Below, piece after piece: positions 5,569 through 61,813 of a stretch of DNA of 64,000 nt. The stretch lies in contig NZ_VTWH01000001.1 of assembly GCF_008369445.1 (NCBI RefSeq), forward strand, positions 1 to 64,000. Direction: 5' to 3'. A program made the translations under genes and the position numbers. Every line of letters begins with the position of its first letter. The stretch's first letter is position 1. Below the pieces are notes generated by a model. It did no database searches. It worked only from the letters and a program-made list of their open reading frames with translations, and was not told the DNA's origin. Source of the DNA: Aureimonas fodinaquatilis. Its GTDB lineage: Bacteria > Pseudomonadota > Alphaproteobacteria > Rhizobiales > Rhizobiaceae.

Positions 5569-5690
5569 TTGCTGGTGCGTTTGAAAACATAGGCATTGGT
5601 GAACAAAGCGGGTAGCGTCAACCGCGAATGATGAAACGCTAAAGCTCACGCGCATCCGGCAAAGCGGGCGTCCCATTCAGGGTGATAAGA

Positions 5691-6212
5691 ATGCAGAATG
5701 GAAATGACACCGAGCTTCAGCTCACGGGACCAATCTGGCGCTTTGCAATTGAGTTCTACGGCAAGCCAGGTGTGTCACAGGCTTGTTTGAAACTGCAGGA
5801 CGAAGCCGGTGTGGACGTTGTCGCGCTGATCGGCATTCTCTATTCCCACACTGTCCTTGGCATAACTTTTGACGCAGCTGCAGTGTCGCAACTGCGAGAC
5901 GTCATTAGCCCTTGGCGAAATAGTACTGTCTTGCCGATACGCGACCTGCGCCGCGCCCTAAAGCGGCCACCTGAAGGATTTCCAGTGGCCGAAACAGAGC
6001 AGCTGCGTGACCTGATAAAGAGTGCAGAACTGAAAGCAGAGCAGATACAGCTTGCCTTGATTGAACGCTGGGCCACGTCGCTTCCGGTGCATACCGGGCT
6101 GCGGTTGGAGGATGCGCTTGGGCAATTGATGGCAACCGCGCCTGACCATCAGGCCGGGTCGTTCGATGTCCTGATATCGGCCGCCCGCGAAGTGAACTTG
6201 CAGACGGCCTGA
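5691..6212 (+). CDS. TIGR02444/DUF2390 family protein
   Basis: The product (173 aa) contains PIWRFAIEFYGKPGVSQACLKLQDEAGVDV near the start, the signature of TIGR02444 proteins: short soluble helical proteins of unknown function. A GTG at 5682 opens the frame three codons earlier. I prefer the ATG at 5691 because GGTGAT at 5681-5686 then serves as ribosome binding site. No membrane segments or catalytic motif are evident. It is convergent with the RidA-like gene. Confidence 0.8.
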   Translation: MQNGNDTELQLTGPIWRFAIEFYGKPGVSQACLKLQDEAGVDVVALIGILYSHTVLGITFDAAAVSQLRDVISPWRNSTVLPIRDLRRALKRPPEGFPVAETEQLRDLIKSAELKAEQIQLALIERWATSLPVHTGLRLEDALGQLMATAPDHQAGSFDVLISAAREVNLQTA

Positions 6213-6234: not shown

Positions 6235-6615
6235 TCAGGCCGATTTTGAGGCGGTGATTTCGATTTCCACCTTCGCGCCAGGCGCGGGAATCTGACAGAT
6301 CAGGAAAGTACTGGTCGGCCGGATATCTGCAAACACCTCACCCAGAACCGGCGTCACTGCAGCGGCTGCCTCGCGGTCGACAACATAGACGCGGCTGACC
6401 ACGGCGTCGGCCAGGCTGGAACCGGCTTCACGCAGGGCTGCGTCTATCGAGGCCAGTGCGTTGCGCGCCTGTTCGGCGGCGTCTTCGGGAAACGTGTTGG
6501 AAACCGGGTCGCGCCCTGTTGTGCCTGAGACATGCACGGTGCGGCCATCAATAACTGCCTTGGCATAACCGGCAGAGGTTTCAGACGGCGCACCAGTGAA
6601 AATTCGGTTCTTCAT
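6235..6615 (-). CDS. RidA/YjgF family reactive-intermediate deaminase
   Basis: RidA proteins hydrolyse reactive enamine/imine intermediates to ketones and ammonia. The 126-aa product has VHVSGTTGRDP, NALASIDAALREAGSSLADAV and STFLICQIPAPGAKVEIEI. The canonical catalytic arginine region before the last strand is replaced by STFLICQ, so it belongs to a divergent Rid subfamily. Start ATG 6615 follows GGAGAG. It is the last gene of the minus-strand cluster, 46 bases after the FAD oxidoreductase gene. An imine from amine oxidation would be a natural substrate; that link is inference. Confidence 0.85.
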   Translation of the reverse strand: MKNRIFTGAPSETSAGYAKAVIDGRTVHVSGTTGRDPVSNTFPEDAAEQARNALASIDAALREAGSSLADAVVSRVYVVDREAAAAVTPVLGEVFADIRPTSTFLICQIPAPGAKVEIEITASKSA

Positions 6616-6660
6616 TCTATCTCTCCGTTGTCGGGTCAAGGGCGTGTTGGCTTGGAATGG

Positions 6661-7965
6661 TCAAGTGGTGCTCCGCTTGAGCGGCCCGTCCTTGAAACGC
6701 ATGGGCGAGAGACCCGAAATATCAACTGGCGAGACGCGGCCCGCGGCCAGTTCGGCCAGGACCTTGCCCGCCATGGGGCCGGGGCCAAAGCCGTGTCCAC
6801 TAAACCCGGTGGCGGCCAGCAATCCCTGCACTGGCTCAACGGGGCCGATGGCCGGGATAACGTCGGGCAGGGTGTCTATAATCCCGGCCCATGCCGTATC
6901 TATTCCAAGATCCTGCGCGGCGGGAAAAATCTGGCGAAAATCGGCAAGCGCCTGTTCGACCCTGTATGCCTCGATTGCAACATGGTCGCGTGTCGGCGGG
7001 ATATCGGCCAATGGTGGCGCAGAAGCGCCCTTTGCCCGGGGGAGCATGGCTAGATAGTTGACCCGCGCTGCATCAGGATTGTCTTTGCGGGTTTGTGCAT
7101 ACCAGCGCATGTTGCGCCATGAATCCAGCCTCACATCATATTCGCCGCCGGCGACGGAAATGACGAACGCGCCATTCACATCCTGTCGAATTCCAGTCTG
7201 GAAGCCCGATACACATGGGCCAAGCCGCAGATCGGGCCGTGGCATTGTTCGCGCCACAGTGGCGCGGATGCGCTCTTGCGGCAGATCCAGGCCAATATGG
7301 CGCAGCAGCGCTGCGCTGTGTGCTCCGGCAGAGCAGACCACCCTGTCTGCGTGGTACAGGTGGTTGCCAACCCATACCCCGGTGACACGACCGCCACCGG
7401 TGTCGATCCGCGCGACGGGCTGGCCAAGTGAAACGGCAACACCCGACTCCATCGCCGCCTCAAAAAAGGCACGTGTTGCGCGTGTTGGTTCTGCTCGGCC
7501 ATCGGACGCCGTGAACATTGAACCCAGAATGCCGATGCCCGGCGCAAGTTCAGGAACGAGCGCTCGGGTTTCGGCAGATGCGAGCATGCGGGTATCGAGG
7601 CCGAATTCTCCCGCGCCACGCTGCTGCCACGTCTGAAGCGAAGCAAGTTCAGCCTCGCTGAATGCAAGCGAAAGATTGCCGCCCTGATGCCAGCCGACAG
7701 ATCGGCCGAGATCAGCCTCGACGCCTTCCCAAATACGCATGGCTCCAACCATCAGTGCCAGTTCGCGGAAATCGCGAGCCTGCTGACGCACGAAGCCGAG
7801 GTTGCGTCCTGACTGGGCCGAGCCGGGCGTGTCACGTTCGATCAGCAGGCAGCTCATTCCCTGGCGCGCAGCATAAAGCGCTGTCGAGCATCCAACGATG
7901 CCGCCGCCAATAACGATTAGATCGTAGCGTCTGGTCGCAGGCTGCATGGCTGACAGCCCTTTCAT
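6661..7965 (-). CDS. FAD-dependent oxidoreductase, DadA/sarcosine oxidase type
   Basis: This is a DAO-superfamily flavoenzyme that oxidises a C-N bond of an amino acid or N-methylated amine. The Rossmann motif VIGGGIVGCSTALYAARQG is near residues 18-36 and the FAD-binding LLIERD follows. GRNLGFVRQQARDFRELALM lies where D-amino acid dehydrogenases bind FAD. The C-terminal GFSGHGFGPGPMAGKVLAEL is the second FAD-contacting stretch. Length (434 aa) suits DadA-like enzymes. ATG 7965 overlaps the upstream permease stop codon (ATGA), so translation is coupled; an ATG at 7947 is an alternative. Linkage to a betaine-type importer, RidA and an aldehyde dehydrogenase suggests oxidative degradation of an imported amine. 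Confidence 0.85.
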   Translation of the reverse strand: MKGLSAMQPATRRYDLIVIGGGIVGCSTALYAARQGMSCLLIERDTPGSAQSGRNLGFVRQQARDFRELALMVGAMRIWEGVEADLGRSVGWHQGGNLSLAFSEAELASLQTWQQRGAGEFGLDTRMLASAETRALVPELAPGIGILGSMFTASDGRAEPTRATRAFFEAAMESGVAVSLGQPVARIDTGGGRVTGVWVGNHLYHADRVVCSAGAHSAALLRHIGLDLPQERIRATVARTMPRPDLRLGPCVSGFQTGIRQDVNGAFVISVAGGEYDVRLDSWRNMRWYAQTRKDNPDAARVNYLAMLPRAKGASAPPLADIPPTRDHVAIEAYRVEQALADFRQIFPAAQDLGIDTAWAGIIDTLPDVIPAIGPVEPVQGLLAATGFSGHGFGPGPMAGKVLAELAAGRVSPVDISGLSPMRFKDGPLKRSTT

Positions 7966-8801
7966 TTATCCGCCCGCTCGCGCTGCACAAGACCCTGGGT
8001 CAGCCGGTCAAGAATAATGGACAGGATGACAACCGCCAGCCCGGCGCGCAGGGCCAGACCCAGCATCATGCGCGACAGACCGCGCGTCACCTCTCCACCC
8101 AGACCGCCAGCGCCGATCAACCCGGCCAGCACCACCATACCCAGTGACAGGAGGATAGTCTGGTTCACCCCAACCATGATGGAGGGAAGGGCTGATGGCA
8201 GGCGAATTTTCGTAAGAATGTGCAACGGGCTTCCACCATAGGCCTGACCCAGCTCGATCCGTTCCTGTGGCACCTGTTTCAACCCCAGAACTGTGAGGCG
8301 AAGAGCCGGCGGAATGCCGAAGATCATGGTGGCCATAACGGCCGGAGCACGCCCGACGCCGAGCAGAACCACAGCAGGAATTAGGTAGACCCAGGGCGGC
8401 ATGGTCTGCATGAGGTCGAGAAGCGGTTTCAACAGCTTTTCAACCACGGCATTCGAGGCTGCGAGTATGCCCAGCGGTATGGCAATCATCAGCGAGAGCG
8501 AAACCGACACGAAGACCAGCGCGGTTGTCAGCATCGTAGCGGCCCACAGGTTGCCGAACCAGCAGAAGGCCAGCCCGACTGCGCAGAACGCGGCCAGCCC
8601 CTTGCCCGAAACGCGCAAGGCCATGAGTGCAACAACCGCGACGATCACCACAGGGGGTACGGAAATCAGCGCTGCTTCCAGGCCTTTAACAGACGCATCG
8701 ACAGCCCCGCTGATTGCGCGGAGCGTGTCACTCCAGTTTCGATTCATCCAGTCAACGGCAACGGCAAAATATTGCCCGAGGGAAAATTGAAGATCAGCCA
8801 C
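7962..8801 (-). CDS. ABC transporter permease, ProW/OpuAB type (second copy)
   Basis: This is an inner-membrane subunit of a quaternary-amine-type importer. Several hydrophobic helices are visible (PPVVIVAVVALMAL, MLTTALVFVSVSLSLMIAIPLGILA, LLSLGMVVLAGLIGAGGLG). The cytoplasmic coupling loop that contacts the ATPase includes RLTVLGLKQVPQERIELGQAYG and KIRLPSALPSIMVGVNQ. A longer frame from 8960 merely overlaps the upstream permease in another frame. GTG 8801 has GGAGGAACGACCC in front and overlaps the upstream stop by eight bases. It is a paralog of that upstream permease, suggesting a heterodimeric channel, whereas ProW-type systems usually use a homodimer. Confidence 0.88.
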   Translation of the reverse strand: MADLQFSLGQYFAVAVDWMNRNWSDTLRAISGAVDASVKGLEAALISVPPVVIVAVVALMALRVSGKGLAAFCAVGLAFCWFGNLWAATMLTTALVFVSVSLSLMIAIPLGILAASNAVVEKLLKPLLDLMQTMPPWVYLIPAVVLLGVGRAPAVMATMIFGIPPALRLTVLGLKQVPQERIELGQAYGGSPLHILTKIRLPSALPSIMVGVNQTILLSLGMVVLAGLIGAGGLGGEVTRGLSRMMLGLALRAGLAVVILSIILDRLTQGLVQRERADK

Positions 8802-9660
8802 GGGTCGTTCCTCCGGTCTTGAGGAAGCGTTCGGCGATGCCCGCTGACAGCCGGTCGAGCAAGATGGACAGCACGACGATGGCCAGCCCGGCATCGACCG
8901 CGCGGCCGATTTCGAGATAGCGGACGGCGCGGTAAACCTCGCTGCCAAGACCTCCTGCACCGATGATGCCGGCGATCACCGCCATGCCAAGAGCCATCAT
9001 CAGACTTTGGTTCACCCCAGCCAGTATGGAGGGCATTGCCGAAGGCAGTTCCACACGTACAAGCTGCGCTGTCGATGTGGCACCGAGGGATCTGGCAAGT
9101 TCAATGCGTTCGGTGGGTATATGGCGTATACCAAGCATTGTCAGTCGAACCGTTGGCGGAACCGCAAGGATCATGGTTGCCACCACAGCCGAGGCACCGC
9201 CAAAACCGATGAGTGCAATCGCTGGCAGCAGATAGACATAAGGCGGGAGCGTCTGCAGCGTGTCCATCGCCGGCTCCAGGACTTTCCCGAAGCGCCTCCA
9301 CCGCGCGCCGAGAATGCCGAGCGGTATGCCGATGGCAAGCGCGATGAGTGTCGCCAGAATAACGAGAGCGAGAGTCTCGATCAGCATTTCCCACAGGCCG
9401 GCTGCCTGGCACATAGCTAGGGCAATGGCTGCAAAAAGTGCAAGGCCCAGGCCGGAAAGCCGCCAGCTTGCTGCAACGGTGAGAGTGACAAACAGCCACC
9501 AGGGCATTGAAAGCGCCCAGTTCAGTGCAAAGAGCGCGCTGTCGAGCGCGGCGCGGATTGCGTCGAACAGAAAGGCCAGATTGTCATTCAGCCAGTCGAT
9601 GCCGTCGTCTACCGTGCGATCGAACGCGCCGTCAAACCGGAAGGAAGTGAGAAAATCCAT
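8794..9660 (-). CDS. ABC transporter permease, ProW/OpuAB type (first copy)
   Basis: This 288-aa protein has an N-terminal amphipathic segment (DGIDWLNDNLAFLFDAIRAALD) followed by a run of transmembrane helices. The BPD_transp_1 coupling loop includes RLTMLGIRHIPTERIELARSLGA and RVELPSAMPSILAGVNQ, and the terminal GIIGAGGLGSEVYRAV is typical of glycine-betaine permeases. ATG 9660 follows GGAGGCTTGAG and sits one base after the ATPase stop codon. The gene order ATPase-permease-permease with overlaps indicates a single translationally coupled operon. Confidence 0.9.
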   Translation of the reverse strand: MDFLTSFRFDGAFDRTVDDGIDWLNDNLAFLFDAIRAALDSALFALNWALSMPWWLFVTLTVAASWRLSGLGLALFAAIALAMCQAAGLWEMLIETLALVILATLIALAIGIPLGILGARWRRFGKVLEPAMDTLQTLPPYVYLLPAIALIGFGGASAVVATMILAVPPTVRLTMLGIRHIPTERIELARSLGATSTAQLVRVELPSAMPSILAGVNQSLMMALGMAVIAGIIGAGGLGSEVYRAVRYLEIGRAVDAGLAIVVLSILLDRLSAGIAERFLKTGGTTRG

Positions 9661-9661
9661 C

Positions 9662-10723
9662 TCAAGCCTCCGACGCTTTGATCGTCTTCGGCCCCTGTAT
9701 ACCCCGCAGCAGATCTTCCTGCGTGACGCAACCAATCAGATGGCCCGTCTCGTCCTCGACAGCCAGCCTGCCGCACTCTTTTGTCAGAAAGAGGTCGATC
9801 AGTTGGTCTATGTCGGCATTGGCGGCCACACGGGGCAGGCTGGAAAGCTCCTCCGGTTCGGCCGTAGCCGCCATCAGAGACCGGGCGCTGACCAGGTGGT
9901 TTTTTGCAATCCCTGCGGTGAAACGAGCGACATAATCGTCGGCCGGTGCCATGACAATGTCTTCAGGCGCTCCAACCTGAACCATGACGCCATCACGCAT
10001 GATTCCGATGCGGTTGCCCACGCGGATCGCTTCTTCAAGGTCATGGGTAATGAAGATGGTGGTTTTGTTGAATTTTCGAGACAGTTCCACGAACTGGTCC
10101 TGCAACTCGCGCCTGATCAGAGGATCGAGCGCCGAGAAAGGTTCGTCCATGAGAAGGATGGGGCTGTCGCTGGCCAGCGCTCGAGCAAGGCCGACACGCT
10201 GCAACATGCCGCCCGAGAGATCGGAAGGGTAACGGTTGGCCCAATCGCCAAGCTGTACCGCCTGAAGCGCGCGCTGCGAGGCCTCAAGTCGTTCTGCCTT
10301 TGGCATTTTGCGAAATTCAAGGCCGAGCGCTGTGTTCTCCAGAACCGTGCGGTACGGCAGCAGCGCCACGCTTTGAAACACCATGGCAATCATCTGGGCA
10401 CGCAGCATACGCAACTCGGCCGCGCCCAGGCTGTTGATCTCGCGCCCTTCGATCAGAATGCGCCCGTCACTTGGTTCTATCAAGCGGTTGATGTGGCGCA
10501 GCAGTGTCGATTTGCCGGAGCCCGACAGGCCCATGATGCAGAAAATCTCGCCACGCTGAACATCGAACGACACGTCTGCAACACCGACCACGCATTCGAA
10601 CCGCCGCAGCACCTCGGCCTTGCCAACACCCTCGTTGCGAATTGCCTTGAGCGCTTCGGGCGCGCGTTGGCCGAAGATTTTCCAGACATTGCGGCATGAG
10701 ATGACGGGCTGACTGTCGTTCAA
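9662..10723 (-). CDS. ABC transporter ATP-binding protein, ProV/OpuAA type, with C-terminal CBS region
   Basis: This is the cytoplasmic ATPase powering import of a betaine-like compound. Walker A is GLSGSGKS (residues 65-72), the Q-loop MVFQSVALLPYRTV, the signature LSGGMLQRVGLARAL, Walker B ILLMDEPFSALDP and the H-loop ITHDLEEAI. After about residue 290 a CBS-like stretch (LFLTKECGRLAVEDETGHLIGC) follows, as in the osmosensing ATPases ProV and OpuAA, though only about one CBS motif is obvious. The N-terminus MNDSQPVISCRNVWKIFGQRAPEAL also matches that family. It lies 150 bases after the binding-protein gene, with a hairpin in between. Confidence 0.92.
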   Translation of the reverse strand: MNDSQPVISCRNVWKIFGQRAPEALKAIRNEGVGKAEVLRRFECVVGVADVSFDVQRGEIFCIMGLSGSGKSTLLRHINRLIEPSDGRILIEGREINSLGAAELRMLRAQMIAMVFQSVALLPYRTVLENTALGLEFRKMPKAERLEASQRALQAVQLGDWANRYPSDLSGGMLQRVGLARALASDSPILLMDEPFSALDPLIRRELQDQFVELSRKFNKTTIFITHDLEEAIRVGNRIGIMRDGVMVQVGAPEDIVMAPADDYVARFTAGIAKNHLVSARSLMAATAEPEELSSLPRVAANADIDQLIDLFLTKECGRLAVEDETGHLIGCVTQEDLLRGIQGPKTIKASEA

Positions 10724-10830
10724 GGCGAAGACTCCACGATGGGCGGTCTGGGGCGTAGTGCCCGGGCGATGTGGTCGTTTTGCTGTTTGCCTGGCCAGTG
10801 AGCCAGATGGATTGTTCTGCAGAAGGATGA

Positions 10831-10862
10831 TGCGGCCTTCAGAATTTCACTCTGCGGCCGCA
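10831..10862 (-). other. Intercistronic hairpin after the binding-protein gene
   Basis: TGCGGCC (10831-10837) pairs with GGCCGCA (10856-10862) across 18 bases. No T-run follows in the minus direction, so it is unlikely to be a full terminator. Hairpins at this place in ABC operons often stabilise the upstream mRNA segment or partly attenuate transcription, giving excess binding protein over membrane subunits; that role here is inference. Confidence 0.45.
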
Positions 10863-10873
10863 CCGAAATCACA

Positions 10874-11731
10874 TCAATTGTTGCCGATAACAGCCTGACG
10901 TTCCAGACGGTTGGCGTTGGCTTCCTTCCAGCGGGTCACTGCTTCTTCAATGGAAGCCCCGTCCTTTACCCAGCCAGTCATCTGGGTCAGTGCCGGCTCG
11001 GGAACAAAGACCGAAGCGATCGATTCACGCGCCTTTGGATGTTCCGCTGAGAAACCCTGACGGGCCAGCCACACATAGGTTTCGGTTGGTTCCTGCACGC
11101 TCTTGGGATCCTTCAGGAACTTGATGTCGAATTCCTGGAAGACCCATGAAGGGGTCCAGTACATGGAAACGATCCATTCCTTGCGGTCGATGGCTGATTT
11201 CAACGCCGCTACGGCCACAGGGCCTGACCCCTCGACGATCTCGTAATCAAGACCGTATTCGCGCACGACGTTTTCAGATTGGCGCATCATGCCGGAACCC
11301 GGTTCCACGCCAATAATCCTGCCGCCAAACTGTTCTTTATGGTCGTTCAACTCGTCAATTGAGTCGATTGTGACGTAGGAGGGGACGATCAGGCCGGCAT
11401 TGTAGCCGTAAGAAACCACATTAAGCTTCTCCAGCCTGCGGGCGTTGCGCTCCCAGTAATCCGCTGCCGCATAGTCGGGGTGCGACACCATGATGTCGAT
11501 GTCACCCTTTCCAAGGGCGGCGAATGCCACGCCCCATTCCTGAAACTCGACGGTTTCAACTTCAAAGCCGTGGCGCTCAAGCATGTCTTCGGTGATCGAT
11601 GATGTCATGACCATGGTTTCCCACTGCATGACACCCATCTTGATCGTCTTTTCCTCTTCGGCTACCGCCGGTGCGGCGGCAAGTCCGATCGCCAATCCCA
11701 GCGCGGCTACAGATTTCTTCAGCAGATTCAT
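10874..11731 (-). CDS. Periplasmic substrate-binding protein, ProX/OpuAC family
   Basis: This 285-aa protein captures the ligand for the ABC importer encoded downstream. An N-terminal signal peptide (MNLLKKSVAALGLAIGLAAA, cleavage near AVA-EEE) precedes the mature domain. KTIKMGVMQWETMVMTSSI and SMYWTPSWVFQEFDIKFL place tryptophans and tyrosines where betaine-binding proteins build aromatic cages for quaternary ammonium groups. KGDIDIMVSHPDY is also typical of the OpuAC fold. ATG 11731 follows AGGAG; the longer frame to 11815 only adds non-coding sequence. The exact ligand cannot be read from the sequence; a betaine or other methylated amine is expected. Confidence 0.88.
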   Translation of the reverse strand: MNLLKKSVAALGLAIGLAAAPAVAEEEKTIKMGVMQWETMVMTSSITEDMLERHGFEVETVEFQEWGVAFAALGKGDIDIMVSHPDYAAADYWERNARRLEKLNVVSYGYNAGLIVPSYVTIDSIDELNDHKEQFGGRIIGVEPGSGMMRQSENVVREYGLDYEIVEGSGPVAVAALKSAIDRKEWIVSMYWTPSWVFQEFDIKFLKDPKSVQEPTETYVWLARQGFSAEHPKARESIASVFVPEPALTQMTGWVKDGASIEEAVTRWKEANANRLERQAVIGNN

Positions 11732-11830
11732 GGCATTTCTCCTGTTGACGAAAAAGGTGATGTCGTCTTCCTGTCGTTGAGGATCGGCCGTAGGTTTTTG
11801 AAAGGCCGTTCCCATGTCACTGACTGTGGG

Positions 11831-13321
11831 TCACCCGATTACAAAGGGATTTGCGATCTCTTCGGCAGTGGAAAGCCAAACGGCCTTGGTCTGCAGAAAT
11901 TCCCGGATGCCCTCAATGCCATTCTCGCGTCCGATGCCGCTTTTCTTGTAACCACCAAACGGCGTCGTGTAGGAAACATCGCGATAGGTGTTCACCCATA
12001 CACTGCCTGCCTCCAGCCGCTCGGACATCAGGAGCGCGCGGCGCATATCGCCAGTCCAAACCCCCGCTGCAAGCCCGAATTCGCTGTCATTGGCAATCTC
12101 GATTGCCTCTTCAACCTCATCGAATGGAATGGCTGCGAGAACCGGGCCGAAGACTTCTTCCTGAGCGATACGCATGTTGTTGCGCACGCCAGCGAAAATT
12201 GTCGGTTCGACAAAATAGCCTGCCTGACACTCCGCAATGTCTGGCCGCTTGCCGCCCAGGATCAGATCGGCGCCTTCCTGCCTGGCGATGTCGATGTAGC
12301 CGAGCACCTTTTCAAACTGCATCGCATTGGCGATCGGCCCGATGCGTGTGTCCTTGTGCCTCGGATCTCCGATGGGAGCCGTTTTTGTGAAGGCCGCAAG
12401 CTTCTCAAGGAACTGATCATGCACCTTGCGGTGAATGAGCAGGCGCGATCCCGCAATGCAGGTCTGACCAACTGCGCCAAAAATTCCGCCGACGACGCCG
12501 CGCACGGCATTGTCGAGATTGGCGTCATCAAAGACGATGTTTGGCGATTTTCCGCCAAGCTCCAGGCTAACGCGCTTTATGTCCCTGGCCGCCAGCGAAT
12601 ACAGATGCGCGCCCGTTTTGGTTGAGCCGGTGAAGCCGACATGCCGGGTCAGCGGATGCGTGACCAGTGGCTCGCCAACTTCGGGGCCATAGCCGGTAAC
12701 CACATTGACAACGCCATTGGGGAAGCCTGCCTGTTCGACGAGCTCCATCAGCTTCAGCGCAGTGGCAGATGTGTATTCCGCTGGCTTCATCACCAGAGTG
12801 CAGCCTGCTGCCAATGCCGGAGCTGCCTTCAGCGAAAATAGAAAGAGCGGCGCGTTCCAGGGCACGATTCCGACGCAAACGCCCAGTGGTTCGTGGCGCG
12901 AATAGCTCAATGCGGGTTTGTCGCACGGATGAACCGCACCTTCGATCTTGTCGGAAAGGCCGCCGTAATAGTGGAACCAGCGTGCAACATAGCGGATCTG
13001 GTGGCGCATTTCGGCCAGCAGCCGGCCATTGTCGCGCACCTCGATTTCAGCAAGCTCATCGGCATTGGCTTCAATCAGGTCAGCGAATTTCTGAAGGACG
13101 CGTCCACGCAGGCTGGGGTGCATTTTGCCCCATGGGCCTGATTTGAACGCTCGATGCGCCGCCTGGATCGCGCGATCCGCATCCTCGGCATTGCCGCGCG
13201 GAACCAAAGCCCATGGCTTGGCAGTGAACGGGTCCACCGTTTCCAGATATTGCCCGGAGGCTGGGGCGACCCATTGGCCGTCAATAAACATGGACAGTTT
13301 TGGCAGGCTATCGGTGGGCAT
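11831..13321 (-). CDS. NAD(P)-dependent aldehyde dehydrogenase
   Basis: This cytosolic enzyme oxidises an aldehyde to an acid. GIVPWNAPLFLFSLKAAPALAAGCTLVMKP forms the cofactor site, VGFTGSTKTG the dinucleotide loop, LELGGKSP carries the general-base Glu, and GQTCIAGSR carries the nucleophilic Cys. EEVFGPVLA and PFGGYKKSGIGRENG are conserved C-terminal motifs. Length (496 aa) is standard. ATG 13321 follows GGAGAG, and an upstream extension to 13411 would read through the promoter. It is the first gene of the minus-strand transcript, 99 bases before the binding-protein gene. It probably handles an aldehyde released from the imported compound. Confidence 0.92.
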   Translation of the reverse strand: MPTDSLPKLSMFIDGQWVAPASGQYLETVDPFTAKPWALVPRGNAEDADRAIQAAHRAFKSGPWGKMHPSLRGRVLQKFADLIEANADELAEIEVRDNGRLLAEMRHQIRYVARWFHYYGGLSDKIEGAVHPCDKPALSYSRHEPLGVCVGIVPWNAPLFLFSLKAAPALAAGCTLVMKPAEYTSATALKLMELVEQAGFPNGVVNVVTGYGPEVGEPLVTHPLTRHVGFTGSTKTGAHLYSLAARDIKRVSLELGGKSPNIVFDDANLDNAVRGVVGGIFGAVGQTCIAGSRLLIHRKVHDQFLEKLAAFTKTAPIGDPRHKDTRIGPIANAMQFEKVLGYIDIARQEGADLILGGKRPDIAECQAGYFVEPTIFAGVRNNMRIAQEEVFGPVLAAIPFDEVEEAIEIANDSEFGLAAGVWTGDMRRALLMSERLEAGSVWVNTYRDVSYTTPFGGYKKSGIGRENGIEGIREFLQTKAVWLSTAEEIANPFVIG

Positions 13322-13372
13322 TGTCTCTCCAATCACCTCGGGTGAACGTCGCCATGGTCTCGAATCTTGAAT

Positions 13373-13411
13373 AGTGATATCAGAATGAAAAGATATTTGT
13401 ATTGTTGTCAA
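13373..13411 (-). promoter_or_regulatory. Predicted promoter and operator of the aldehyde dehydrogenase-transporter operon
   Basis: On the minus strand a perfect -35 box TTGACA lies at 13411-13406, with a weak AT-rich -10 region about 17 bases on. Just downstream, near the expected start of transcription, is AGTGATATCA (plus-strand 13373-13382) with palindromic core TGATATCA. The same 10-mer occurs inverted next to the GntR gene, which makes it a likely repressor site. Confidence 0.55.
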
Positions 13412-13531
13412 GAACAGAATTGTGGCCGCGCCAAAATTGCCAGATTGGGGTAATTATGCCCCAAAAGCTGCAAATATGGGCGAATTGCCGCTTTTATCAC
13501 CAAATGAGATTTTTGATCTTCGAATTTTTGC

Positions 13532-13582
13532 TTGCAATATGAAACGCCAGAGAGTGATAATGTTACGGATAATGATATCACT
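13532..13582 (+). promoter_or_regulatory. Predicted promoter and operator of the GntR-ubiD-ubiX operon
   Basis: TTGCAA at 13532-13537 and GATAAT at 13556-13561 (18-base spacer) form a plausible sigma-70 promoter. TGATATCACT (13573-13582), the reverse complement of the site upstream of the aldehyde dehydrogenase gene, lies at the expected transcript start, and an extra half-site AGTGATAAT overlaps the -10 (13553-13561). Between the two promoters, TTGGGG(N8)CCCCAA is a further inverted repeat near 13445-13464. Confidence 0.5.
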
Positions 13583-13594
13583 TTGGATGGCACA

Positions 13595-14344
13595 GTGACT
13601 GACCAGCCTCTTTACGAACAGATCAAGTCGGCGATCGATCGCCGCATAGAAACCGAGGAATGGCCTGCCAATTATCAGGTGCCGTCCGAGGAGGATCTCG
13701 CCAGCGAATTTGGCGCTTCACCTCTGACAGTGCGGCGCGCGCTGCGCGAATTGCAGACCGATGGCGTGCTTTTGCGCATTCAGGGCAGGGGCACCTTTGT
13801 TATCGGACCCCGCATGCAGTGCGCGGTCTTCAACTTGCCCGACATTGAAGAAGAGGTTGCGCTGTCAGGCGGCGCTCATTCGTGCCGCGTTCTGCAGCAT
13901 TCGATACTTGGTCGCGACAGCCCCGGTCGCAACATGCTTCAGCTGCCGCCCGAGGAAACCGTTTTCCATTCCCGCCTCCTGCATCTTGAAGATGGTACGC
14001 CAATTCAGCTCGAGGACCGCTATGTGAACGCGTCGGAAGCGCCGGCTTATCTGGAACAGGATTTTTCTCGCATTACGCCGCACAACTGGCTTCTGCGCGA
14101 AACGACTGTCACCACGGTTGATAACACCATTCGCGCAATCCGGGTTGACGAAGACATCCGCAATCACTTGCAGATCAGCGAGAACCAGCCTTGCTTGTTG
14201 CTCGATCGTTCGACCTGGCGTGAAGGTATTCCGGTAACAAGAAGCCGTTTCATTTATCCCGGCGATCGCTATCGCCTGCGCTCCTCGCACGAGGCGCGCT
14301 CAAACCGGATTGTTCCGACACCCAGCCCCGGCAAAGGCCGCTGA
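13595..14344 (+). CDS. GntR-family regulator, HutC/UTRA subfamily
   Basis: This DNA-binding regulator has an N-terminal winged helix (PLYEQIKSAIDRRIETEEW, then PSEEDLASEFGASPLTVRRA as helix-turn-helix, then GRGTFV) and a C-terminal UTRA effector domain (VFHSRLLHLEDGTPIQLEDRYVN, PCLLLDRSTWREGIPVTRSRFIYPG). HutC-type proteins usually repress and are released by a pathway metabolite. The frame opens at a TTG at 13532, but that would put the promoter and operator inside the gene; GTG 13595, with GGATGG four bases upstream, fits better. It is divergent from the ALDH-transporter operon and 24 bases before ubiD, and probably controls both arms. Confidence 0.85.
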   Translation: MTDQPLYEQIKSAIDRRIETEEWPANYQVPSEEDLASEFGASPLTVRRALRELQTDGVLLRIQGRGTFVIGPRMQCAVFNLPDIEEEVALSGGAHSCRVLQHSILGRDSPGRNMLQLPPEETVFHSRLLHLEDGTPIQLEDRYVNASEAPAYLEQDFSRITPHNWLLRETTVTTVDNTIRAIRVDEDIRNHLQISENQPCLLLDRSTWREGIPVTRSRFIYPGDRYRLRSSHEARSNRIVPTPSPGKGR

Positions 14345-14368
14345 TCCAGCGCCACGAGGAGATCAAGC

Positions 14369-15700
14369 ATGAGAGAATTTGTCCGCAAGCTGGAGGCTCG
14401 TGGTGACCTTCTGGTCGTCGACCGGGAGGTTGATCCAGCGCATGAACTGGCCGCCGTTACTGCTCTTGCGCAAAAAAAGTGGCAGAAGCCGGTGATGTTC
14501 ACCAATGTGAAGGGCACCAGATTTCCGGTCGTCACCAATATTTACAGCACGCGCGAGCGGTTGGGTGAGGTGATTGGCATTGATACGGCAGATTTCTGCC
14601 GTCAATGGAGCAGGCTTTCGACGCTGGGTGCGGCCGATATGAAGGAGCCTCTCGTGATGGCAGGTCCGTCCGACCTTCCGGAATATGAAGAGGTGAAGCT
14701 GTCGGATCTGCCGCTGATCACTTATTCCGACCGCGACGGCGGCGCCTATTTCACTTCGGCCATGTTCATCGCCAAAGACCCCGAGACGGGTGTGGGCAAT
14801 CTTTCCTATCACCGCTCAATGTACATCAATGATGGCGAACTGCGCTGCCGCCTGGCACCGCGCCATCATCTGACAATCTACCATGAGAAAGCCGAGAAGA
14901 TGGGCAAGCCCCTTGAGGCGGCCATGCTGATCGGAACGCCCGCACATGCCTTCCTGACCGCCGCTGCGCCACTGCCATACGATGTGGACGAGTTGGAAGT
15001 TGCCGCCCGGCTGCGTGGCAGGCCAATTGCCATGCGCAAATGCAACCACATTGCTCTTGAGGTGCCGGCCGAGACGGAAGTGGTTATCGAAGGCCGGTTT
15101 CTTCCCAATGTCCGCCTGCCCGAAGGTCCATTTGGCGAATTCATGGGCTATTACGTGCCCGTCGGGCCGAACGCTGTTTTCGAGGTGCTGGGCGTCACCG
15201 TACGCAAGGACGCGATGTTCCATTCGATCCTGTGCGGCTCGCCAGAAGAGGTGCTGACGCTGGAGTCGTCGGTTTCGGCCAATATTTTCCAGCGGTTGTC
15301 GGCGGCTCTGCCCGGAATTGTCAACGTCACCTGTCAGCCATTTGTCAACCATGCGATTGTGCAGATTGAACCGCAGTTTGAAGGCCATGCTCGACAGGTC
15401 ATGCTGGCCACGATCGGTGCAGAGCCAATCTGGGCCAAGCAGATTACGGTCGTGGATACCGACGTGAACATTTACGAGATGGACGACGTTCAATGGGCAA
15501 TCCTGACGCGCTGTCGTCCGGACAAGGACATGATGATCATTCCCGAAACGCCGTCTTTCTACCGCGATGAGCAGAAGGATCATTGGGGTCGTTTGCTTGT
15601 AGACGCCACCAAACCATGGGGGCGCGAGGCAGAATTCGAGCGCAAGCGATTGCGGTTGGGCGACAAGGTTCGCGCTGATGACTGGTTCCCGGGTCGCTGA
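14369..15700 (+). CDS. UbiD-family prenylated-FMN-dependent decarboxylase
   Basis: UbiD enzymes reversibly decarboxylate aromatic, heteroaromatic or alpha,beta-unsaturated acids using prenyl-FMN. The 443-aa product shows TNVKGTRFPVVTNIYSTRER, YHRSMYINDGELRCRL, AMLIGTPAHAFLTAAAPLP, LPEGPFGEFMGYY (containing a conserved catalytic Glu) and a C-terminal DPDD-like region. Length fits the catabolic subgroup, shorter than E. coli UbiD (497 aa). ATG 14369 follows GAGGAGA. It is next to its maturation partner UbiX and under a GntR regulator, which argues for a dedicated catabolic role rather than ubiquinone synthesis. The acid substrate is unknown. Confidence 0.9.
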   Translation: MREFVRKLEARGDLLVVDREVDPAHELAAVTALAQKKWQKPVMFTNVKGTRFPVVTNIYSTRERLGEVIGIDTADFCRQWSRLSTLGAADMKEPLVMAGPSDLPEYEEVKLSDLPLITYSDRDGGAYFTSAMFIAKDPETGVGNLSYHRSMYINDGELRCRLAPRHHLTIYHEKAEKMGKPLEAAMLIGTPAHAFLTAAAPLPYDVDELEVAARLRGRPIAMRKCNHIALEVPAETEVVIEGRFLPNVRLPEGPFGEFMGYYVPVGPNAVFEVLGVTVRKDAMFHSILCGSPEEVLTLESSVSANIFQRLSAALPGIVNVTCQPFVNHAIVQIEPQFEGHARQVMLATIGAEPIWAKQITVVDTDVNIYEMDDVQWAILTRCRPDKDMMIIPETPSFYRDEQKDHWGRLLVDATKPWGREAEFERKRLRLGDKVRADDWFPGR

Positions 15701-15701
15701 T

Positions 15702-16295
15702 ATGGACTTGCGTCGTATCATCATCGGCATTTCGGGTGCGTCGGGTGCGGCATATGGAATTGCCGCGCTGAAGCTTGCGCGGGCAGCCGGAGTGGAAACA
15801 CATCTGGTGGTCTCGCGCTCGGCACTGCTGACGCTCAAACAGGAACTCGGCCTTCAGAAAGCCGACCTGGAGGGGCAGGCGGATGTCATCCATCCTGTCG
15901 CCGATATTGGTGCCAGTATCGCGTCCGGCTCGTTCCGCACGAGCGGCATGCTGGTGGCGCCCTGTTCGGTCAAGACAATGTCTGAAATTGCAACCGGCGT
16001 TACCTCCTCGCTGATGAGCAGGGCCGCAGATGTGGTTTTGAAAGAGCGGCGACGCCTGGTCCTGATGGTGCGCGAAACGCCCCTGCATCTGGGCCATCTG
16101 GAAACGATGAGCCGGCTGACGCAGATGGGAGCGATTATCATGCCGCCGGTGCCAGCGTTTTACGCCAAGCCGCAGAGCCTTGAGGAAGTGGTTACCCATT
16201 CCGCAGCCCGGGCGCTTGACCTCTTCGACATCGACACTGGAATGGTGAAACGATGGACTGGTTTGAGCGATGCGATGGGTGGCAACACTGGCTGA
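15702..16295 (+). CDS. ubiX: UbiX-family flavin prenyltransferase
   Basis: UbiX attaches a dimethylallyl group to FMN to make the prenyl-FMN cofactor for UbiD enzymes. The 197-aa product has RIIIGISGASGAAYGI (flavin-binding loop), GSFRTSGMLVAPCSVKTMSEIATG (catalytic Ser/phosphate contacts), ADVVLKERRRLVLMVRETPLHL and IIMPPVPAFYAKP, all highly conserved. A start at 15678 overlaps ubiD; ATG 15702, one base after the ubiD stop, gives the normal family length. Adjacent ubiD-ubiX means this locus supplies its own cofactor. Confidence 0.92.
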   Translation: MDLRRIIIGISGASGAAYGIAALKLARAAGVETHLVVSRSALLTLKQELGLQKADLEGQADVIHPVADIGASIASGSFRTSGMLVAPCSVKTMSEIATGVTSSLMSRAADVVLKERRRLVLMVRETPLHLGHLETMSRLTQMGAIIMPPVPAFYAKPQSLEEVVTHSAARALDLFDIDTGMVKRWTGLSDAMGGNTG

Positions 16296-61544: not shown

Positions 61545-61813
61545 AATGACGGCGCCTTTCGTACCTGCAGGCGCGAAATATGTGGCGAGAGTCCGTTTGT
61601 TTGCCGGTCAAAGCCACATCCCTTCTGAAGAAGGCACCACCTTGCCCGGACGGCAGGTTGGCGTTGGGTCGCGCCCAACTCTTGATGTTGTTGTTGAAAT
61701 GCCATGTTTTTCCGCTTAGCACAAGCGTCCTCTGGTAGCAGTGTCAATTTGGCCTGCCAAAGCCAGAGCACCGTCTGCAAACGGGCGGTAAAGCGGGTAA
61801 GGGGCAGGCAGCC
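61545..61813. other. Gap without a recognised gene
   Basis: These bases lie between the divergent small hypothetical gene and the SorC-type regulator. Open frames here are short and unconvincing, and I see no repeat of the families found elsewhere. Promoters for both genes are expected but no clear -35/-10 pair stands out. Confidence 0.5.

Follow-up and report, generated by a model that had tools for sequence, protein, structure and literature searches.

The ten genes at positions 6235–16295 of the window (the whole 64,000-nucleotide stretch of Aureimonas fodinaquatilis contig NZ_VTWH01000001.1 that was analysed) are one copy of a widespread, uncharacterised bacterial gene set. The set seems to take up a small amine with a ring, convert it to an acid and decarboxylate that acid with a UbiD enzyme. 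The tentative proposal, at a confidence somewhat short of even, is that the cluster represents one form of a modular catabolic set and that its substrate is a secondary amine or cyclic imino acid derived from histidine and carrying an imidazole.

All ten genes were found where the sequence-only reading had placed them and in the orientation it gave, with Pfam and NCBIfam support. On the reverse strand, nearest the shared intergenic region, lies an aldehyde dehydrogenase (ALDH, 11831 to ~13321; PF00171, 2e-179), the start of which was shifted from 13411 after comparison with relatives and which scores below the cut-offs of the BADH and HpaE models. It is followed by the importer genes, encoding an OpuAC-family binding protein (10874 to ~11731; PF04069, 1e-56, and alignment with relatives), a ProV-type ATPase with a CBS domain (PF00571) at 9662–10723 and two ProW/ChoW-type permeases (8794–9735 and 7962–8960, with starts probably near 9660 and 8800, respectively), which reach 245.2 and 258 bits with TIGR03416, below its cut-off of 363. 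This arm ends with a DAO-family flavoenzyme, a probable secondary-amine or imino-acid oxidase or dehydrogenase (6661–7965; PF01266, 1e-65), and a RidA-family imine/enamine hydrolase (6235–6639; PF01042, 1e-21; 51.5 bits with TIGR00004, below the cut-off of 106.25). The forward strand carries a HutC-like GntR/UTRA regulator (from 13583 with TTG, or 13595 with GTG, to 14344), a UbiD-family decarboxylase (14369–15700; TIGR00148, 313.6 bits against a cut-off of 244.85) and a UbiX-family flavin prenyltransferase (15678–16295; PRK06029, 251.9 bits against 188). The UbiD and UbiX genes overlap, the DAO gene and its neighbouring permease gene overlap by 4 bases and the RidA gene lies 21 bases past that of the DAO, spacing which fits two operons. 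The genes form two divergent arms with one regulator between them. It should also be noted that a TIGR02444-family gene convergent with that of RidA (5682–6212, forward strand; 80.6 bits against a cut-off of 48.3), outside the limits first given for the cluster, is probably part of it; tblastn detected a member of this family at 31 of the 40 loci of the set.

These 40 loci, the window counted among them, have a UbiD that shares 70% identity or more with the Paracoccus denitrificans protein; the duplicates L093, L094, L095 and L097 were removed before counting (L094 has the regulator missing from the incomplete L031). Identity of the UbiD to proteins of other Alphaproteobacteria reaches 93%. 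The core of ALDH, HutC-like regulator, UbiD and UbiX is present together in 30 of the 40 loci, a recurrence indicating that the grouping exceeds chance. Among plasmid records, all 19 with a related DAO (17 of them S. meliloti) also hold a related UbiD, which supports the earlier suggestion of a single pathway in two arms; the DAO is missing from six of the 25 records with a related UbiD. Against linkage of the arms, which had also been anticipated, the two were not observed together at five loci, the flanks of L033 and L037 having no ALDH and those of L035, L038 and L039 neither ALDH nor regulator. A search for the DAO at an E-value of 1e-110 in 385 genomes of the class gave no match except its own, no more than four candidates being scored in the genomes listed. 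When 61 relatives were searched at 1e-60, matches of 34–37% identity appeared in nine further genomes. The pathway was unreported in the literature found in one open library.

The front end of the set is exchanged between genomes in blocks. In the first version a DAO-family amine oxidase is combined with an importer of the amino-acid or ProX type; the second is made up of a three-part dehydrogenase, a racemase and a ThDP decarboxylase, usually with a Pot-type importer. The DAO occurs in 21 of the 40 loci, always accompanied by an amino-acid-type or ProX-type binding protein, and the ThDP decarboxylase in 15, always with the racemase and the dehydrogenase beta subunit and in 14 cases with a Pot-type binding protein. 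Only in L045 and S. meliloti do the DAO and the ThDP enzyme co-occur. Against a clean split of the two versions, L033 and L037 have the DAO together with the racemase and three-part dehydrogenase, with no ThDP enzyme in their flanks. Both front ends fit a sequence of amine to aldehyde to acid followed by decarboxylation by UbiD, the order proposed in the sequence-only reading and still plausible, and the exchange of the DAO for the ThDP block is that predicted for substrates of the types R-CH2-N and R-CH(N)-COOH. Elsewhere in the genome of the window there are ten matches to ThDP enzymes, of which the closest shares 48% identity with the Paracoccus enzyme, so a remote decarboxylase could act with the cluster. 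A structure model of the DAO (pLDDT 77.8), with L-amino acid deaminase, L-proline dehydrogenase and sarcosine oxidase as top Foldseek matches, places the enzyme in its superfamily and no finer.

Genes for histidine utilisation (hut) flank the cluster at nine of the 40 loci, which belong to several genera, and the flanks of the other 31 show none; of the 79 loci from the UbiD search, 12 have hut genes in their flanks. In ten of 30 genomes, UbiD and a HutU-family match share a contig and are no more than 16 kb apart (seven full HutU, two HutU-like and one fragment) against 0.27 expected, a count from which most small HutU fragments were omitted and of which the significance is overstated, the 30 genomes having been chosen after the first hut cases were found and including the known linked cases. 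The proximity is well above chance, among relatives that are not independent. Of these 30 genomes, 26 have HutU scoring above cut-off, as have 97 of the 385 drawn from the class, a sample of different taxonomy. The cluster of the window includes no hut genes, and its genome carries HutU on a different contig. In some relatives the set lies beside histidine-degradation genes, which suggests a compound resembling histidine, not a betaine, as the food source. A single cluster of the ergothioneine utilisation (ert) type, L123, also has a UbiD-UbiX pair beside a HutU-like gene, but it is distant, its UbiD being only 33% identical to that of the window.

The regulator had been described as a GntR protein; the GntR/UTRA family was confirmed, with the correction that it passes the NCBI HutC model TIGR02018, scoring 259.5 bits where 220 is the cut-off. 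In a midpoint-rooted tree with long branches, from which L001, L100, L109, L093, L095, L097 and matches shorter than 200 residues were left out, the 46 cluster regulators formed one clade (100/100) apart from nine others, several of them hut-adjacent. The cluster regulator therefore does not group with HutC of hut operons, and its ligand need not be urocanate. The canonical HutC operator is TGTAnnTACA, which has no occurrence in the window. The palindrome TGATATCA at 13375–13382, before the ALDH gene, is conserved in ALDH-HutC intergenic regions and is a probable operator, as is AATGATATCACT at 13571–13582, just ahead of the regulator; we infer that the HutC-like protein acts on candidate operators of the TGATATCA type. 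Five further near-copies were detected in the genome, and none of the four inspected preceded a recognisably related gene.

The UbiD is predicted from its sequence to be a prFMN-dependent decarboxylase with the adjacent UbiX as its prFMN source. Its R149 and E257 are invariant and E252 nearly invariant among 14 sequences, and by hand count R149 and E257 align with R155 and E266 of AnInD. The decarboxylases of furan, indole and pyrrole acids (HmfF, AnInD and HudA) are likewise UbiD-family proteins paired with their own UbiX, and the nearest relatives of solved structure have furandicarboxylate and indole-3-carboxylate as substrates; the score was 233.7 bits with HmfF and 113.5 bits with HudA. 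At the positions of HmfF His296 and Arg304, two residues with assigned roles, the window UbiD has Glu294 and Val302 (hand count). The position of Asp169 of AnInD, an indole-binding residue in the available part of PMC8988006, is Ala163 (hand count). A substrate guess from such residues was dropped, the characterised relatives being too few. For HudA, conversion of imidazole-4-carboxylate to imidazole at 1.3% is given in the accessible portion of PMC7976604.

In the proposed pathway, the ABC importer would take up the imino acid, the DAO-family enzyme would oxidise its ring-CH2-N bond and RidA would aid hydrolysis of the imine to a heteroaryl aldehyde. The ALDH would convert this to the ring carboxylate, from which UbiD, using prFMN made by UbiX, would strip the ring carboxyl group, and the resulting histidine, urocanate or closely related compound may then enter the hut pathway. 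In other genomes a compound with one extra carboxyl group would reach the same aldehyde through the racemase, three-part dehydrogenase and ThDP decarboxylase, and the HutC-like repressor would govern both arms from the shared region.

A rather unlikely alternative is catabolism of an arylmethylamine or arylglycine without an imidazole, in which the amine or amino acid would pass (through an arylglyoxylate) to the arylaldehyde, the arylcarboxylate and the arene. The swap of the DAO for a dehydrogenase and ThDP decarboxylase is expected for any ring and the UbiD is nearest HmfF, yet the hut proximity speaks against this route, as does the failure to recognise any ring-degrading family in the recurrent neighbours, for which gene calls were imperfect.

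That the cluster degrades a methylated or quaternary amine such as homarine, trigonelline or an aryl betaine, as first proposed, is now improbable. In its favour, the ATPase passes TIGR01186 (335.9 bits against 326.6), a ProV-family model for betaine, proline and choline that also covers proline importers, the ALDH scores best with the BADH model, below cut-off, and the DAO fold family takes in sarcosine and dimethylglycine oxidases. The binding protein, however, is 49–51% identical to four proteins of hydroxyproline-type operons and 27–32% identical to two glycine-betaine-type binders in the same alignment, and it fails the cut-offs of the ChoX and ProX models (81.1 bits where 379.05 is required, and 32 where 215 is required). 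It retains W39, W194 and W198 and has SHPDYAAADYW in place of the binders' SAWLPN/SSWVPT stretch, the Trp of which is presumably part of the glycine-betaine binding cage. Since this Trp is missing and other genomes carry an amino-acid-type or Pot-type importer instead, the betaine reading is unsupported. No pyridine-ring or Rieske enzyme was found among the ten genes, and a methylated amine would leave the hut proximity unexplained.

The accompanying suggestion of a cyclic imino acid came nearer. Of 140 plasmid records matching the importer, four were inspected, and all four importers lie within hydroxyproline-type operons (Agrobacterium and Paracoccus plasmids; L127–L130), in which a ProXVWW-type importer is near an FAD oxidoreductase, an ALDH and a DapA-like gene, with a 4-hydroxyproline epimerase annotated in three. 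A hydroxyproline-type pathway, with UbiD decarboxylating pyrrole-2-carboxylate from a side dehydration, would suit this and the activity of HudA on that acid (PMC7976604, available part), and is judged about as improbable. Both the epimerase and the DapA-like deaminase belong to the known route (PMC4113996, as far as available) and are absent among the ten genes, which makes hydroxyproline itself unlikely; UbiD/UbiX, RidA and the HutC-like regulator stand in their place. The DAO matches one oxidoreductase of these operons in short stretches only and the ALDH is 38% identical, both being distantly similar, while the lower UbiD score with HudA also counts against this route, which leaves the ThDP enzyme found in the second version unexplained. 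Conversion of histamine or D-histidine to imidazoleacetate, with UbiD acting separately, is very unlikely: hut proximity and the presumed need for an amine oxidase, 2-oxo-acid decarboxylase and ALDH agree with it, but UbiD, the best-kept member, is left without a role, and we know of no arylacetate that is a UbiD substrate.

The best fit is given by a cyclic imino acid that derives from histidine and is passed on to hut. Spinacine, a cyclic adduct formed spontaneously from histidine and formaldehyde (PMC9814826, available part), would be compatible with each enzyme among the ten; the specific proposal that the DAO cleaves its ring-CH2-N bond, RidA and ALDH yield 5-carboxyhistidine, and UbiD regenerates histidine for hut, is an improbable one. 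The racemase/ThDP version would then process the matching glyoxylate adduct, and the route, if true, would to our knowledge be the first to repair formaldehyde-damaged histidine and put it to use, as well as a new UbiD reaction.

In S. meliloti the transport genes satABC (arginine) and potABCD4 (putrescine) were essential for symbiosis by TnSeq, according to the part of PMC7268258 available. From gene order and numbering these appear to be the two importers of the S. meliloti cluster, so their assigned substrates may need re-examination. The claim on the gene set is testable in Paracoccus denitrificans and Sinorhizobium meliloti. Detailed characterisation covers only a handful of UbiD-family members (PMC8988006, available part), and a UbiD that receives its substrate through an amine oxidase and an ALDH, in some genomes beside histidine degradation, would, if true, be new chemistry for the family.

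All ten genes that the sequence-only reading had assigned to the cluster are present, and their family assignments stand. They lie in two divergent arms around a shared region of approximately 260 bases: the minus-strand arm encodes an ALDH, an OpuAC-type binding protein, a ProV-type ATPase, two permeases, a DAO-family flavoenzyme and RidA, and the plus-strand arm a GntR/UTRA regulator, which scored above the cut-off of the NCBI HutC model, UbiD and UbiX. A TIGR02444-family gene (5682–6212), convergent with RidA, recurs alongside the cluster. Elsewhere in the window, a SAM-I/IV riboswitch was detected on the minus strand (61587–61693; 53.8 bits against an Rfam gathering score of 41.1).

A scan of genome contigs returned 147 stretches related to the UbiD (the best 93% identical), of which the best 80 were retained, representing 79 distinct loci. 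Among 61 genomes near that of the window, its own included, a UbiD match at E 1e-60 was found only in its own and in one distant case (36%), and none of its 20 congeners had such a match; the cluster is therefore accessory. Gene content was compared in 40 loci, after plasmid records and the window had been included and four duplicates excluded; the UbiD of each shares 70% or more identity with its P. denitrificans counterpart (we chose the identity cut-offs). The UbiD and UbiX pair was present in 39 of these and the TIGR02444 gene in 31, while ALDH, HutC-like regulator, UbiD and UbiX were all found in 30, loci L033 and L037 being exceptions with no ALDH in their flanks.

Of 29 intergenic regions between ALDH and the regulator, 23 contain the exact palindrome TGATATCA. 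Allowing one mismatch at most, 21 of 38 loci (duplicate records included) have AATGATATCATT upstream of the regulator; it was met at six further positions in 802 kb, of which three precede second HutC-like copies. The putative operator sites of the window are located at 13375–13382 and 13571–13582. In a regulator tree, the cluster's regulators (46 rows) form a clade of their own, separate from nine further HutC-like rows that include several hut-adjacent ones. The operator search also met three copies of AACGATATCGTT at 353, 412 and 471 (353–482), spaced by exactly 59 bases.

Front-end genes are exchanged between the 40 loci in blocks. The DAO joined to UbiD by the sequence-only reading was present in 21, in each case alongside a binding protein of amino-acid type (LAO) or ProX type, the latter in the window and Pseudohalocynthiibacter only. 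The link also holds from the DAO side, with cluster-type UbiD in all 19 plasmid records holding cluster-type DAO, though 17 of these are S. meliloti; six of 25 plasmid records with cluster-type UbiD lack the DAO (five Paracoccus, one S. meliloti). A ThDP-dependent decarboxylase (PRK08199 family in Paracoccus) was found in 15 loci. All 15 also have an Asp/Glu-racemase-family gene together with one for the beta subunit of a three-part FAD/2Fe-2S/FAD dehydrogenase, and 14 have a Pot-type binding protein. Only Paraburkholderia (L045) and S. meliloti combine DAO and ThDP enzyme. Two observations argue against a strict division: L033 and L037 carry the DAO with racemase and dehydrogenase and no ThDP enzyme nearby, and ThDP enzymes occur elsewhere in the window's genome (best 48% identical). 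The regulator and UbiD of the window are nearest to those of Paracoccus, whose front end is of the other type. It is suspected that the DAO would convert R-CH2-N to R-CHO in one step and that the alternative front end would convert R-CH(N)-COOH to a 2-oxo acid, with CO2 lost before later steps; ALDH then UbiD would be the common continuation of both.

Neither the DAO nor the ThDP enzyme was found in five of the 40 loci. L027 and L046 are short contigs, and in L035, L038 and L039 UbiD-UbiX follows an SsuA-type importer and an IclR regulator, which hints that direct uptake of the acid may also occur. A second UbiD (36–37%) occurs in both L038 and L099; in L099 it is followed by a gene annotated as glutamate cyclase domain, which has 73% identity to the corresponding L038 gene. 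L099 further holds a racemase-family gene, a HisC-like aminotransferase, UbiX and TIGR02444. By gene order and numbering, both importers of the S. meliloti cluster (plasmid loci L095, L097; SMa2195–SMa2211, pSymA) appear to be satABC and potABCD4, which PMC7268258 designates importers of arginine and putrescine; locus L092 is itself unannotated.

The cluster had previously been read as importing and degrading a betaine-type amine, and the ATPase does score above the cut-off of a betaine/proline/choline-family model. A related binding protein was found in 140 plasmid records, four of which were inspected; all four hold an FAD oxidoreductase, an ALDH and a DapA-like gene beside the importer, and three an annotated 4-hydroxyproline epimerase. 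In alignments the window's binding protein is 49–51% identical to the binding proteins of these four and 27 and 32% identical to two glycine-betaine-type binders, and it shares with the four a stretch S(H/Q)xDYxAxDYW where those binders have SAWLPN and SSWVPT. Given these identities and this stretch, an imino acid is predicted to be a likelier ligand than a betaine. With the binding protein nearer to relatives from hydroxyproline-type operons than to two glycine-betaine-type binders, the betaine reading of the cluster is not supported.

Histidine-utilisation (hut) genes were found in the flanks of 12 of the 79 loci and nine of the 40, namely Paracoccus (two), Chelativorans, Brucella/Ochrobactrum (two), Rubellimicrobium, Salipiger, Microvirga and Nitratireductor, with side and strand varying. 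In 10 of 30 genomes, no more than 16 kb separates UbiD from a HutU-family match (0.27 expected). For the seven full HutU, 3.8 to 13.5 kb from UbiD, P is ~2e-8, indicative only since the 30-genome list was compiled after the hut-flank survey of the 79 loci and relatives are not independent. A HutU above cut-off is encoded by 26 of these 30 genomes, compared with 97 of 385 taken from the class, sets unlike in taxonomy. Two metagenome-assembled genomes carry a HutU-like gene and an ArgE/DapE-type deacylase close to UbiD (L048, 1862–9400; L055, 271–4166) in differing gene order; the HutU-like proteins are 68% identical to each other and 53–55% to HutU, and the deacylases 64% identical. In a single case, an ergothioneine-type cluster (L123, G073:C9:726000-745000; ErtD model passed with 772.6 bits against 600), a distant UbiD-UbiX pair (33%, 57%) directly follows a HutU-like gene. 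The next gene there encodes a TRAP-type binding protein, named by eye.

The solved structures nearest to the window's UbiD are HmfF and AnInD. According to a docked model in PMC8988006, Asp169 of AnInD contacts the nitrogen of indole; the window's UbiD has Ala163 at the aligned position. An imidazole acid is a chemically possible UbiD substrate, as HudA is described in PMC7976604 as converting imidazole-4-carboxylate to imidazole at 1.3%. A histidine-linked imino acid is our best, still tentative, guess for the substrate. Spinacine forms when histidine reacts with formaldehyde, in solution as well as in cells (PMC9814826); it is a histidine derivative and, at the same time, a cyclic imino acid. 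On oxidation it would yield 5-formylhistidine and then 5-carboxyhistidine, which UbiD would decarboxylate to histidine, feeding hut. This proposal would give a role to each enzyme among the ten genes and none to TIGR02444, and spinacine itself is an improbable candidate. The cluster is a real, conserved, catabolic one, uncharacterised as far as searches of one open-access library show.
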